A stretch of DNA of 64,000 nt from Pelagibacteraceae bacterium AG-426-I15 (GTDB lineage: Bacteria; Pseudomonadota; Alphaproteobacteria; Pelagibacterales; Pelagibacteraceae). Shown piece by piece: positions 7,838 to 58,191 of the stretch. Numbering within the stretch: position 1 is the first letter of the stretch; every line of letters starts with the position of its first letter. The notes below the pieces were generated by a model, which made no database searches, was not told the DNA's origin, and saw nothing but the letters and a program-made list of their open reading frames with translations. The stretch covers positions 1-64,000 of the forward strand of contig QCNT01000001.1 in NCBI GenBank assembly GCA_003213135.1. Direction: 5' to 3'. The position numbers were made by a program, and so were the translations under genes.

Positions 7838-7945
7838 TCCAACACCTATCGCACTAGTGGGCGAACCATCGCTGACTAGTGTCGATCCCTTTATTTCTAA
7901 AGGCACCGCAAAATCTAATATTTGCGGAAGTGACGAGAAGCTACA
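7838..7945 (-). ncRNA. Structured 5' leader RNA upstream of ffh (candidate cis-regulatory element)
   Basis: Minus-strand hairpins: CCGCAAA/UUUGCGG (7906-7912 with 7921-7927); CCUUUA-GAAA-UAAAGG (7888-7903, GNRA loop); CACUAGU/ACUAGUG (7852-7858 with 7875-7881) with nested GCGA-UGGU-UCGC. The region is visibly more GC-rich than its surroundings. A candidate ffh leader motif has been described in Pelagibacter (from memory). Confidence 0.8.
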
Positions 7946-39726: not shown

Positions 39727-40643
39727 CTTTTTTTTGTAAAACTTTTGGCGGATTTTTTTAAAATTTCTTCACCAGCTAATTTTCCTAATAATTCTGGTTC
39801 ATTAGATTTCCCTGATTTAAAAACATTAAAAACTTTTTTACCATCGTCAGAAAAAAGTTGTGCTTTAAGATCAATTTTATCTTTATTTAGATTTGCGGTG
39901 CAACCTACTGCCGTATCACAATCTCCACCGATAGTTTTTAAAAAGTTTCTTTCTGCTAAAGCGCATATTTCAGTTTCAGAATGATTTATTTTTTTTAAAA
40001 TATTTTTTATTCTTTCATCGTTATCCCTACATTGTACAGCAATTATTCCTTGACCTGCTGTTGGTATAAAATCTTCTACTGAAAATACTTGTTTAGCATA
40101 ATTTTCTAAATTTAATGTTTTTAAACCAGCTAAAGCTAATATTGCTCCATCGTATTCACCATTTTCAATTTTACTAATTCTTGTATCAACATTTCCTCTA
40201 ATAGTTTTAATTTTTAAATTCTTATTCATTAATTTTAATTGTAGCTCTCTTCTTCTGGAACTTGATCCGATTTTACCGTTGTTTAAATCTGATAATTTTT
40301 CAAATTTTTTTGAAACAAAGGACTCTCTTGGATCGTTACGCTTTATATAGGCTTGAATTATAAGACCATTAGTTTCAATTGAGTCCATATCTTTTAAGGA
40401 GTGAACTGCAATATCGATTTCTTTTTTGATCAATTTATCTTCGATCTCTTTGCAAAATAAATTTTTTCCTCCTATTTCAGAAATTTTTTTATTCCCAAAT
40501 AAATCTCCTGAGGTTTTAATTGTTTCTATAGCAATTTCTTCACTGTTTAGTATTTGTTGATTGCATATTAAATCTTTTACTTTGTTAACATATGCCAATG
40601 ATAGCTTGCTACCTCTTGAGCCTATTGTAATTTTATTATTCAT
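39723..40643 (-). CDS. hemC: Porphobilinogen deaminase
   Basis: IGSRGSKLSLAYV, DIAVHSLKDM, IGSSSRRRELQL, IRGNVDTRISKI, GGDCDTAVG. Confidence 0.96.
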   Translation of the reverse strand: MNNKITIGSRGSKLSLAYVNKVKDLICNQQILNSEEIAIETIKTSGDLFGNKKISEIGGKNLFCKEIEDKLIKKEIDIAVHSLKDMDSIETNGLIIQAYIKRNDPRESFVSKKFEKLSDLNNGKIGSSSRRRELQLKLMNKNLKIKTIRGNVDTRISKIENGEYDGAILALAGLKTLNLENYAKQVFSVEDFIPTAGQGIIAVQCRDNDERIKNILKKINHSETEICALAERNFLKTIGGDCDTAVGCTANLNKDKIDLKAQLFSDDGKKVFNVFKSGKSNEPELLGKLAGEEILKKSAKSFTKKR

Positions 40644-40680
40644 TTATCTATAAAAATATATATTTTATAATAACTAATTA

Positions 40681-41757
40681 ATGAAAAAAAAACTTACTTT
40701 TTTAGGAATTGAGACAAGCTGTGACGAAACTGCAGCATCTGTTGTTCAAGAAAATAGCAATGGAACTGCGAAAGTTTTATCAAATGTAGTTTCTAGCCAA
40801 ATAAGGGAACATAAAAAATTCGGAGGTGTTGTTCCTGAAATTGCAGCAAGAGCACATGTTGAAAATGTCGACTTTATAATTAAGGAAGCACTAAAAAAAA
40901 GTAAGAAAAAAATTAAAGACCTGGATGGAATAGCAGCAACCGCTGGTCCTGGATTAGTTGTTTGTTTGCATGTTGGTTATAATATAGGAAAAAGTATATC
41001 AGAGTTTGGGGAAAAAAAATTTTTTCCAATTAATCACTTAGAAGGTCATGCATTAAGCCCTAGTATTGAAAATAAAATATCTTTTCCATATTTGCTGCTT
41101 TTAGTTTCTGGTGGTCATTCTCAATATTTAATTGTAAAGGGTTTAAATAATTATAAGCGGATAGGTACTACAATTGACGATGCTGTGGGTGAAGCTTTTG
41201 ATAAAACTGCTAGGATTCTAAATTTAGGTTATCCTGGCGGTCCAAATGTAGAGAAGTTTTCTAAATTGGGTAACAAAAACAGTTATGATCTTCCACAACC
41301 AATTATAAATAGAGCCGGATGCAATTTGTCTCTAGCTGGTCTTAAAACAGATGTATTAAGAAAATCAAAAAATATCAAATCAGATCAAGATAGATATAAT
41401 CTAGCAGCATCTTTTCAAGATACTATAAATAAGATTTTGAGAAAAAAAACTGAAGTGGCAATGAAAATGTTTTTGGACGAAGTAACAAACAAACACGATA
41501 ATTCATTTGTTGTAGCAGGTGGTGTTGCCGCAAATGAGACTATTAGAAAAAGTTTGAAAGAAATTTGTGAAAAAAGGAACTTTAAAGCTGTTTTTCCGTC
41601 TAAAGAATTTTGTGGTGATAATGGAGCGATGATAGCCTGGGCTGGAATTCAAAGATATAAAAAAAAATTATTTAGTAAAAAAGATGAGATAGTAAGATCA
41701 AGATGGCCTTTAGATAAGTATGCTCCTTTTCTAAAAGGTCCGGGTTTGAAAATTTAA
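40681..41757 (+). CDS. tsaD: tRNA N6-adenosine threonylcarbamoyltransferase
   Basis: GIETSCDETAASVV, VVPEIAARAHVE, LLVSGGHSQYLIV, DDAVGEAFDKTARIL, GYPGGP. Confidence 0.96.
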   Translation: MKKKLTFLGIETSCDETAASVVQENSNGTAKVLSNVVSSQIREHKKFGGVVPEIAARAHVENVDFIIKEALKKSKKKIKDLDGIAATAGPGLVVCLHVGYNIGKSISEFGEKKFFPINHLEGHALSPSIENKISFPYLLLLVSGGHSQYLIVKGLNNYKRIGTTIDDAVGEAFDKTARILNLGYPGGPNVEKFSKLGNKNSYDLPQPIINRAGCNLSLAGLKTDVLRKSKNIKSDQDRYNLAASFQDTINKILRKKTEVAMKMFLDEVTNKHDNSFVVAGGVAANETIRKSLKEICEKRNFKAVFPSKEFCGDNGAMIAWAGIQRYKKKLFSKKDEIVRSRWPLDKYAPFLKGPGLKI

Positions 41758-55097: not shown

Positions 55098-56092
55098 TTA
55101 ACTAGATATTTTTTTGTTAGATGCTCAAGTAAATTAATATGATCATCTCCGTCATTTAAACATGGAACCAAATCAAAGTTTTTGCCACCGCTTTTAAGGA
55201 AGCTTTCTTTTCCTTGGATAAAAATTTCTTCTAAAGTTTCTACACAGTCTGAAGAAAAACCAGGGCAAATAACTAAAATATTTTTCTTTCCATCCCTGGG
55301 TAAACTTTCTAGAGTTTTGTCTGTGTATGGTTGCAGCCACTCTTGGGGCCCAAACCTTGATTGGAATGTTGTTAATATCGGTATTTTTTTAAAACTTTCG
55401 GATAAGAGCCTTGATGTCTTTTGACAATAGCAATGATATGGGTCTCCTTTGTTAAAATATTTTTTAGGTATACCGTGATAGGAAGCTATGACTAGATCGG
55501 GTTTCCAATCTAATTCGGAAATTTTCTTATCAAGACTATTAACTAAAGCAGAAATATATAATGGTTCCGATTCATAGTGAGGTATAATTTGTAAACTAGG
55601 CTGCCATCTCATTTTAATAAGGGTCCTATAAACTTCATCGCAAACTGTTGCCGTTGTTGCGGCTGCATACTGAGGATACAATGGCAAAACTATAATATTT
55701 TCACATCCTTGGTCTTTAAGTTTCATTATTTTACTTTTTATACCAGGGTTTCCATACCTCATAGCAAAATCCACGACTATATTTTCATTTTTTATTTTAT
55801 CGTTTAGTTTTTTAGTCTGCATAATTGTATAATATCTTAGAGGTGACATATTTTCTTTTTTAAACCAAATTTCCTTATAAGCTTTTGCTGTTTTAGATGG
55901 TCGTAAATTAAGAATAAATAAATTTAAAATTATTTTCCATAAAATGGGATTTACTTCTATAACCCTGTTATCTGACAAAAATTCTTTAAGATATTTCCTT
56001 ATATCCCACCAGCTTGTTGAGTCTGGTGTTCCTAAGTTTACTAGGAGCAATCCAGTTTTTCCGTATTTGACCTTGGGATGATCTTGCTTCAT
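55094..56092 (-). CDS. hemH: Ferrochelatase
   Basis: GLLLVNLGTPDSTSWWDIRKYLKEFLSD, MRYGNPGI, LPLYPQYAAATTATV, SYHGIPKKYFNKGDPYHCYC, QSRFGPQEWLQPYTD. Confidence 0.96.
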   Translation of the reverse strand: MKQDHPKVKYGKTGLLLVNLGTPDSTSWWDIRKYLKEFLSDNRVIEVNPILWKIILNLFILNLRPSKTAKAYKEIWFKKENMSPLRYYTIMQTKKLNDKIKNENIVVDFAMRYGNPGIKSKIMKLKDQGCENIIVLPLYPQYAAATTATVCDEVYRTLIKMRWQPSLQIIPHYESEPLYISALVNSLDKKISELDWKPDLVIASYHGIPKKYFNKGDPYHCYCQKTSRLLSESFKKIPILTTFQSRFGPQEWLQPYTDKTLESLPRDGKKNILVICPGFSSDCVETLEEIFIQGKESFLKSGGKNFDLVPCLNDGDDHINLLEHLTKKYLVK

Positions 56093-57096
56093 CTTTTTTT
56101 TCTTACTAGATTTGTAATATATCTAATTGTTTCTGGTTTTGTATCTGGTAAAACTCCGTGGCCTAAATTGAAAATATACGGATATCCTGAAAATATTTTA
56201 AGATATTTTTCTACCTCTTTTTTAATCGCATTTTCATCTTTCAAAAGAATCTTGGGATCCATACCACCCTGTATTGGTATTCCTTTTAAGTTATTTTTAG
56301 CCCATTGTGGATCTACATCGTAATCTATACTAATACAATGCGGAGAAACTTTTTCGCAATATTCTGCATATTCTTTTCCAAGACCTCTGGGAAAACATAT
56401 TATAGGTTTTTTTTTATTATTTACTTTATTAATTATATTTTTTGATGGGTTGTAACAAAAATTAAACAATTGATTTTTAGGTAACAATCCGGCCCAAGAG
56501 TCAAAGATTTGTATTACATCTGCGCCAGCCTTTATTTGTTCGTTAATATGCAAAGAAATCATATCCTCTAATTTTGCTAATAGTTTTTGGGTTAATTTTT
56601 CGTTTTTAATTACTTTAAAAAAATCAAAATCTTTTTTTGGTGACTTTTGGTTTAACATATAAACAAGCAATGTCCAAGGGGCTCCGGCAAAACCTATTAC
56701 GCTTTTTTGTGGCAGCTTTTCTTTAACTTTGCTTATTGCTTTGTAGACTGGTGATACTTTTTCTAAGAAATTTTGAGCTGTGGTTTTTAAAATTTCTTCT
56801 ATCTTTAAGTCTCCTAAAACTGGGCCCTCTCCCTTTTTAAATTCTACTTTTTGACCAAGTCCATAGGGTATTAGCAAAATATCAGAAAAAATAATTGCTG
56901 CGTCTAGGTCAAATCTTTTTATAGGTTGTATTGTAATTTCGGCTGCTAGTTCACTATTTAAGCACAAATTAATAAAATTAGGATTCTTTATTCTTATCTC
57001 TTTAAACTCAGGCAAATATCTACCTGCCTGTCTCATAAACCATATAGGCAAATATGATGAGTCTCTATTGGAAATGCATTCGACTAGTTTGTTCAT
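56089..57096 (-). CDS. hemE: Uroporphyrinogen decarboxylase
   Basis: PIWFMRQAGRYLPEFKEIR, AAIIFSDILLIP, GFAGAPWTLLVYML, QIFDSWAG, FNLGHGVLPDTKPE. Confidence 0.97.
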   Translation of the reverse strand: MNKLVECISNRDSSYLPIWFMRQAGRYLPEFKEIRIKNPNFINLCLNSELAAEITIQPIKRFDLDAAIIFSDILLIPYGLGQKVEFKKGEGPVLGDLKIEEILKTTAQNFLEKVSPVYKAISKVKEKLPQKSVIGFAGAPWTLLVYMLNQKSPKKDFDFFKVIKNEKLTQKLLAKLEDMISLHINEQIKAGADVIQIFDSWAGLLPKNQLFNFCYNPSKNIINKVNNKKKPIICFPRGLGKEYAEYCEKVSPHCISIDYDVDPQWAKNNLKGIPIQGGMDPKILLKDENAIKKEVEKYLKIFSGYPYIFNLGHGVLPDTKPETIRYITNLVRKKR

Positions 57097-57369
57097 TAAT
57101 TAATATAGTATAAGTATAATTCTATTTGTTGTAATAGGTCATGTTAGTTAGTGAAAATGGGATAATATTCATATTATCTACATATTGCATGGATTAAAAA
57201 TGTAAATAAAACGGGCTTTTTCTATATTATTAACAATGTTAATTATAAAATATTAAATTATAAACATTATTTTAATTGTTAAATAATTGTTGATTAAGGT
57301 GAATAAAAAACTCTTTCTATGAATATAGCTTTATATCTATGAATTATACTAAAATAACTCACAGTTTTA
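57097..57369. other. oriC: Candidate chromosomal replication origin region (hemE-ppsR intergenic gap)
   Basis: Largest protein-free gap in the window, very AT-rich, between divergent hemE and ppsR. Synteny with Caulobacter Cori (hemE side) and the predicted Rickettsia origin. DnaA-box-like TTATCTACA at 57174-57182 and reverse TAATCAACA at 57288-57296. Confidence 0.6.
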
Positions 57370-58191
57370 ATGACAAATAAATATAAAATATTCCTTATCT
57401 CAGATTCTACCGGGGAAACTCTGGATAGAATATTTTTAGCTTTACAATCTCAATTTGCAAATTTCCATTATGACAAGAAAGAATTTGTTTTTATAAGAAC
57501 ACAACAACAGATTGATAAAATAATTAATGAGTGCAAATCACAACAAAGCTCAATAATACTTTACACAATAGTTGATACTAAACTAGCTAAGTTCTTAGGT
57601 ACAGAATGTGAGAAAAATAACATTCCCTGTTTTGGCGTCTTAGGTAATTTAATATTAAGCTTCTCTAAGCTATTAAATCAAAAAGCAACGCACAAACCTA
57701 GCGCTCAACACGTGCTAGATGAAGATTATTACAAGAGAATAGAGGCCATCCAATTTACAATGTCACATGATGATGGAAAAAAGAACGAAGATATAAACCA
57801 AGCAGATATTATTTTATTGGGTGTCAGCAGAACCAGCAAAACACCAACATCAATCTATTTGGCTAACAGAGGTTACAAAACATTAAATATACCACTGGTT
57901 TTAGATCAGGCCATTCCCTCAATTTTAGAAAAAGATAACAAAAAAATCTGTGTAATTGGTTTATTCGCTGACGCTGAAAGATTAGCAGAAGTTAGAAAAA
58001 CCAGAATTAGTGTAAATACATCAATTGATTTAAAAACTTATACCGATGTTGAAAAAATCAGAATAGAAGTAGAAAATTCAAAAAAAATGTTCAAAAGGTT
58101 TAATTGGCCTGCAATAGATGTTACTAGACGATCAGTCGAAGAAACAGCAGCGTCAATAATTAAAATATACGAAATAAAAAAAAATAAATGA
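57370..58191 (+). CDS. ppsR: Pyruvate, phosphate/water dikinase regulatory protein (DUF299 family)
   Basis: IFLISDSTGETLDRI, FGVLGNLI, ADIILLGVSRTSKTPTSIYLANRGYKTLNIPLV, WPAIDVTRRSVEETAASII. Confidence 0.95.
   Translation: MTNKYKIFLISDSTGETLDRIFLALQSQFANFHYDKKEFVFIRTQQQIDKIINECKSQQSSIILYTIVDTKLAKFLGTECEKNNIPCFGVLGNLILSFSKLLNQKATHKPSAQHVLDEDYYKRIEAIQFTMSHDDGKKNEDINQADIILLGVSRTSKTPTSIYLANRGYKTLNIPLVLDQAIPSILEKDNKKICVIGLFADAERLAEVRKTRISVNTSIDLKTYTDVEKIRIEVENSKKMFKRFNWPAIDVTRRSVEETAASIIKIYEIKKNK

Follow-up and report, generated by a model that had tools for sequence, protein, structure and literature searches.

A putative chromosomal replication origin in the hemE-ppsR intergenic gap of a SAR11 genome

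Results

The hemE-ppsR gap and its conservation

The window, the 64-kb stretch of DNA analysed here, lies at the beginning of a 336,766-base contig from a draft SAR11 genome of 976,624 bases (88% complete). In a greedy ORF map it is 97.5% coding and its spacers have a median length of about 12 bp; its largest protein-free gap measures 273 bp (57097..57369, no strand assigned), the runner-up being 188 bp. The gap is flanked on the left by hemE, encoding uroporphyrinogen decarboxylase on the minus strand (56089..57096; TIGR01464, 351 bits, cut-off 303), and on the right by ppsR, a COG1806 gene of the PEP synthase regulatory kinase-phosphorylase family on the plus strand (57370..58191; NF003742, 309.7 bits, cut-off 225; PF03618). 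The two genes diverge, and they are the flanks expected of an oriC of the hemE/COG1806 type. The original prediction, which proposed a replication origin between them, had both the rank of this gap and its coordinates exactly right. Its description of the gap as extremely AT-rich holds insofar as A+T content is 81.3% compared to 69.3% for the window, an elevation expected of hemE/COG1806 origins, but three other places equal or exceed it. Across 119 distinct SAR11 gaps the mean G+C content is 18%. Nearest-neighbour duplex energies place the second least stable 50-bp stretch of the window inside the gap (57223..57272, no strand assigned), making it a possible candidate for a melting region. The least stable 50-bp stretch of the window lies at 40628-40677, at the boundary of a leftward and a rightward gene and close to position 40,697, where the raw GC skew of the contig has its minimum. 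A tRNA search of the window returned none, and Rfam returned no match near the gap, its sole match in the window being a distant ffh sRNA at 7844-7896 on the minus strand (RF01793, 49.4 bits, gathering 35).

The gap was compared across 131 SAR11 loci, from which the 119 distinct gaps served for pattern counts. In 129 of these loci it measures 255-289 bp; the other two, which belong to genomes G061 and G062, have a gap of 353 bp. In these two genomes (loci L214, L215 and L287) the gap is adjoined by rho instead of hemE, and a divergent hemE is found at 412 and 718 kb, respectively, about 570-650 kb from the gap. Despite the displacement of hemE, the conserved block of the gap described below is still found beside ppsR. 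In the wider Alphaproteobacteria, hemE adjoins ppsR in all 30 loci sampled. The PpsR of the window, used as a query, had no match in any of the 24 genomes from the second family of the order (G037-G060), in which the origin may occupy another context or PpsR may be too divergent for the search used.

The dnaA gene lies on the same contig as the window, 71 kb from the gap, and the distance between dnaA and ppsR is 61-72 kb in all genomes where it was located. It is found on the ppsR side in the genome of the window (G000), G034, G061 and G062; the remaining genomes have it on the hemE side. In a comparison with the complete genome G032, the genes between about -4 and +14 kb of the gap lie on the same side in both, and those farther out, up to about 77 kb, are mirrored. 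An origin at this place would be compatible with such a small inversion and with dnaA lying on different sides, but we gave this rearrangement low weight because an inversion of 17 kb is hardly informative on symmetry.

DnaA-box-like sites in the gap

The gap contains six sites with at most two mismatches to TTATCCACA. The two sites named in the original prediction, TTATCTACA at 57174-57182 and TGTTGATTA at 57288-57296 (TAATCAACA on the minus strand), are both present, although they make up an incomplete list. Site A (TTATCTACA; 57174..57182, plus strand) has one mismatch to TTATCCACA and a mean column conservation of 0.93 in the genus. Site B (TTATTAACA, or TTATACACA and TTATCAACA in relatives; 57227..57235, plus strand; conservation 0.88) is paired, in inverted orientation, with site B' (TAATTAACA; 57237..57245, minus strand; conservation 0.84), which was recognized from sequence and alignment. 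They are followed by site C (TTATAAACA, with TTATTAACA in relatives; 57258..57266, plus strand; conservation 0.89), by site D (TAATCAACA; 57288..57296, minus strand; two mismatches, conservation 0.85) and by the weak site D2 (TTATTCACC; 57298..57306, minus strand; two mismatches, conservation 0.82). Site E (TAACTCACA; 57355..57363, plus strand), identified by alignment directly before ppsR, is weak here (conservation 0.79, measured one base leftward) and is a perfect TTATCCACA in relatives L011, L012, L018 and L022.

An alignment of 21 congeneric gaps shows that all of these sites, together with the block at 57132-57150, align column by column. Conservation of the box columns averages 0.87 compared to 0.71 for the rest of the gap, a value that none of 272 circular shifts attained. 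Several sites therefore hold their position in homologous gaps, a conservation that the original prediction had named as a check. The SAR11 boxes diverge loosely to TTATNNACA. Furthermore, the 119 distinct gaps contain on average 3.5 matches to TTWTNNACA and 0.71 sites within one mismatch of TTATCCACA, compared to 0.70 and 0.078, respectively, in dinucleotide shuffles. The related pattern TTATHHACA, shaped after inspection of the gaps, peaks at the gap in each of three sequences scanned, namely the whole of the complete genome G032, 300 kb from G034 and 144 kb from the window's contig; in G065, which was not used to choose the pattern, the matches listed include at least three forward sites inside the gap. 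The cluster of six sites within two mismatches of TTATCCACA is unique to the gap within 144 kb of the window's contig, dnaA included, whereas by this measure the gap is not distinctive in G032 or G034. The gap hence shows the excess of DnaA boxes over other places expected of a hemE/COG1806 oriC, the unmodified E. coli consensus being unique in 144 kb only.

A conserved block adjoining hemE

The most conserved block of the gap (57132..57150, minus strand) adjoins hemE. It reads TAATAGGTCATGTTAGTTA on the plus strand and TAACTAACA-TGAC-CTATTA on the minus strand, and is composed of a weak DnaA-box-like TAACTAACA (57150-57142), a TGAC spacer (57141-57138) and the trio-like CTA TTA (57137-57132), with column conservation of 1.00, 0.85 and 0.92 in the 21 congeneric gaps; TAATAG / TGTTAGTTA is contained within it. 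At the same place, 220-243 bp before ppsR, Pelagibacter-like relatives present a DnaA box, a short spacer and trios, as in TTATTCACA-TTCC-CTAATAATACTA. The BUS rule, which calls for a DnaA box with at most two mismatches, a spacer of at most 16 bp and at least three trios (PMC8287927), is satisfied at the hemE-proximal site in 15 of 18 Pelagibacter-like gaps, with a shuffle expectation of 2.1 anywhere in the gap, and in none of 16 gaps of the window's genus. Like a BUS, the block of the window has a box-like sequence, a 4-bp spacer and CTA TTA at the homologous place; unlike it, the box in the window's genus is poor, with four mismatches, and only two consecutive trios follow, and we rejected the block as a strict BUS. 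The TAG trinucleotide on the plus strand peaks 220-280 bp before ppsR (1.31, 0.85 and 0.48 per 20-bp bin, compared to 0.06-0.36 elsewhere), and in several loci of the class CTACTAC-like runs come after TTATCCACA on that side. Its position suggests that the block of the window is a divergent unwinding element.

Strand composition switches at the gap

The minimum of the raw GC skew, which the original prediction expected at the gap, falls at 40.7 kb within the 144 kb examined; the direction-corrected switch, in contrast, does fall at 57 kb. Raw minima were likewise located at 97.9 kb in G032, 1,072 kb in G034 and 159.8 kb in G062, so that they are off the gap by 16-31 kb in the four genomes, and in G032 and G034 the raw maxima are found close to the position opposite the gap. 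Because the raw minima miss the gap and appear to follow gene direction, we dropped raw cumulative GC skew as a locator and as a main argument, and used corrected fits instead. In fits that include gene direction as a covariate, the switch in third-position skew falls at 57 kb for the window's contig (gap at 57.2 kb), 65 kb for G032 (67.0 kb), 1,091 kb for G034 (1,090.2 kb) and 140 kb for G062 (141.5 kb). In G062, the one of the two genomes with displaced hemE in which this was tested, the switch likewise stays beside ppsR. Fourfold sites place the switch of the window's contig at 57,000-57,500 (log-likelihood gain 36.6, compared to a maximum of 14.2 in 60 permutations) and the best origin of G032 at 55 kb (range 30-70); in G034 and G062 they carried too little signal to locate a switch. 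In nine congeneric loci, GC skew is +0.37 over the kilobase immediately left of ppsR and -0.22 over the one immediately to the right.

A strand-composition switch at the site is expected of a hemE/COG1806 oriC, and here it presents inverted polarity at silent sites. Fourfold sites on the right-hand side of the gap are enriched in C and A, with a GC skew of -0.134 (t -6.9) and an AT skew of +0.058 (t 5.9), and this sign persists in samples out to the end of the contig. Restricting the analysis to the five strictly fourfold amino acids yields -0.149 and +0.073, and the same script applied to 50 kb around E. coli oriC returns the usual sign (+0.06 and -0.14). The silent-site composition flips at the gap in the direction opposite to E. 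coli, at the place known for the class. The inverted switch, seen at 57000-57500 of the window and along the whole contig as well as in loci L030-L038, is strong in the genus and weak in G032, where the skews are -0.023 (t -2.8) and +0.023 (t 6.9).

Regulatory sites and cell-cycle regulators

As originally noted, the gap of the window has no TTAA-N7-TTAA CtrA site; such sites are typical of hemE/COG1806 origins and scarce in their reduced members. Across the 119 gaps, N7 is not favoured over other TTAA-TTAA spacings. The IHF consensus WATCAANNNNTTR, also typical of these origins, is absent from the gap of the window and occurs at 0.17 per gap in the 119 gaps. None of the four proteins of the window's genome with a Trans_reg_C (OmpR-type DNA-binding) domain meets the curated CtrA model, which is the Rhodobacter one: the first is PhoB, the second most resembles other response regulators, the third gave no recognisable match to a receiver, and for the fourth the assessment was made on its apparent counterpart in G032. 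With no favoured TTAA spacing and no recognised CtrA, we rejected regulation by CtrA. GcrA, in turn, was recovered from each of the seven genomes searched. Six of them give a strong match to a CcrM-type methylase domain; the 88%-complete draft of the window yields a broken, weak match with five in-frame stops (G000:C1:231471-232016), which may reflect a pseudogene, a chance match or a missing contig. Since GcrA is present and the CcrM-type domain is intact in relatives, the cell-cycle circuit is reduced rather than absent. The suggestion of a simplified or differently regulated origin is therefore half supported: neither a CtrA site nor CtrA was recognised, but GcrA and, in relatives, an intact CcrM-type domain are in place.

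Discussion

The gap and its conservation, the cluster of boxes with their conserved positions and the composition switch are observed features of this locus. The conservation of the gap, the conserved box positions and the switch support an origin between hemE and ppsR, as originally predicted, although that prediction had overlooked the most conserved block (57132-57150) and the inverted silent-site skew. On this sequence evidence, we consider the gap to be very probably (probability about 0.92) the oriC from which the chromosome of this SAR11 genome is replicated, occupying the alphaproteobacterial hemE/COG1806 position. At such an origin, DnaA would bind the divergent box cluster (sites A-E) and oligomerise toward the hemE-proximal block (57150-57132), and the A+T-rich DNA beside this block would be the likely place of opening. 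The helicase would then load, and two forks would leave, one through hemE and the other through ppsR.

Judged by E. coli polarity, silent sites right of the gap, being C- and A-rich, have the composition of a lagging strand, as they would if the gap were a replication terminus or another meeting point of forks and the origin lay elsewhere. We consider this highly improbable. A cluster of DnaA boxes would be unexpected at a terminus, and replication would be opposed by the 61-65% of coding bases that run away from the gap, by the 16S gene of G032 and by dnaA, which is directed away from the gap in every genome with positions compared. Termination zones are usually diffuse, whereas the composition switch is sharp to about one gene. 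Across the class, furthermore, this position is an origin (PMC1914354). Given that gene direction, 16S, dnaA and the box cluster all argue against a terminus, we maintained the origin reading at the probability stated above.

An equally slim chance attaches to the gap being a mere divergent promoter region of hemE and ppsR, with the blocks as promoter elements and the origin near dnaA, where it has been placed by rule in Pelagibacter (PMC2031905), or elsewhere. Promoter-like hexamers do occur on both strands of the gap, but they are no more frequent than in shuffles (7 compared to 4.8, sd 2.1). The block at 57132-57150 overlaps the -35-like hexamers of two candidate hemE promoters; it persists, however, in G061 and G062, where hemE is not adjacent, which disfavours a role as hemE promoter, though it could then serve rho. 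In addition, no comparable box cluster is found elsewhere in the 144 kb, dnaA included, and composition switches at the gap and not at 129 kb.

Taking the gap as the origin, we lean, with some reserve, toward the interpretation that replication in this SAR11 genus leaves an inverted mutational imprint, in which silent sites of the leading strand are C- and A-rich rather than G- and T-rich and the composition changes sharply at oriC. If so, skew-based origin finders would take the origin for the terminus, and an asymmetry of deamination or repair would be reversed in this streamlined lineage. Confirmation would make the sign of skew unsafe as an indicator of replication direction and raise a question about mutation asymmetry. 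Our open-access literature search, which was not exhaustive, found no report of skew inversion in SAR11. SAR11 are among the most abundant marine bacteria, and growth estimates from metagenomes depend on the positions of origin and terminus; a fixed, conserved gap about 60-70 kb from dnaA would provide a usable origin anchor for them. Besides the placement by rule cited above, the excerpt of a further publication describes a manual call of Pelagibacter oriC, its location not being stated in that excerpt (PMC4033161), and a fourfold-site survey of 352 chromosomes reported unequal arms for Pelagibacter ubique with oriC fitted from skew (PMC2099444).

The hemE/COG1806 context is the published position of the Caulobacter and Rickettsia origins (PMC1914354). 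The gap of the window resembles Caulobacter Cori and the Rickettsia origin in its flanking genes, their divergent orientation, its A+T-richness and its several DnaA-box-like sites. It differs from them in its length (273 bp, compared to table entries of 383-404 bp; PMC1914354), in boxes that have diverged to TTATNNACA, and in lacking both a CtrA site and the IHF consensus. The origins of Wolbachia, Ehrlichia and Anaplasma, in which hemE is paired with COG1253 (PMC1914354), share with SAR11 a reduced genome, a location beside hemE and few CtrA sites. These genera lost the COG1806 partner, whereas G061 and G062 lost the hemE partner and kept ppsR. In G062, the hemE copy at 718 kb lies roughly opposite the gap (141.5 kb) on the chromosome.
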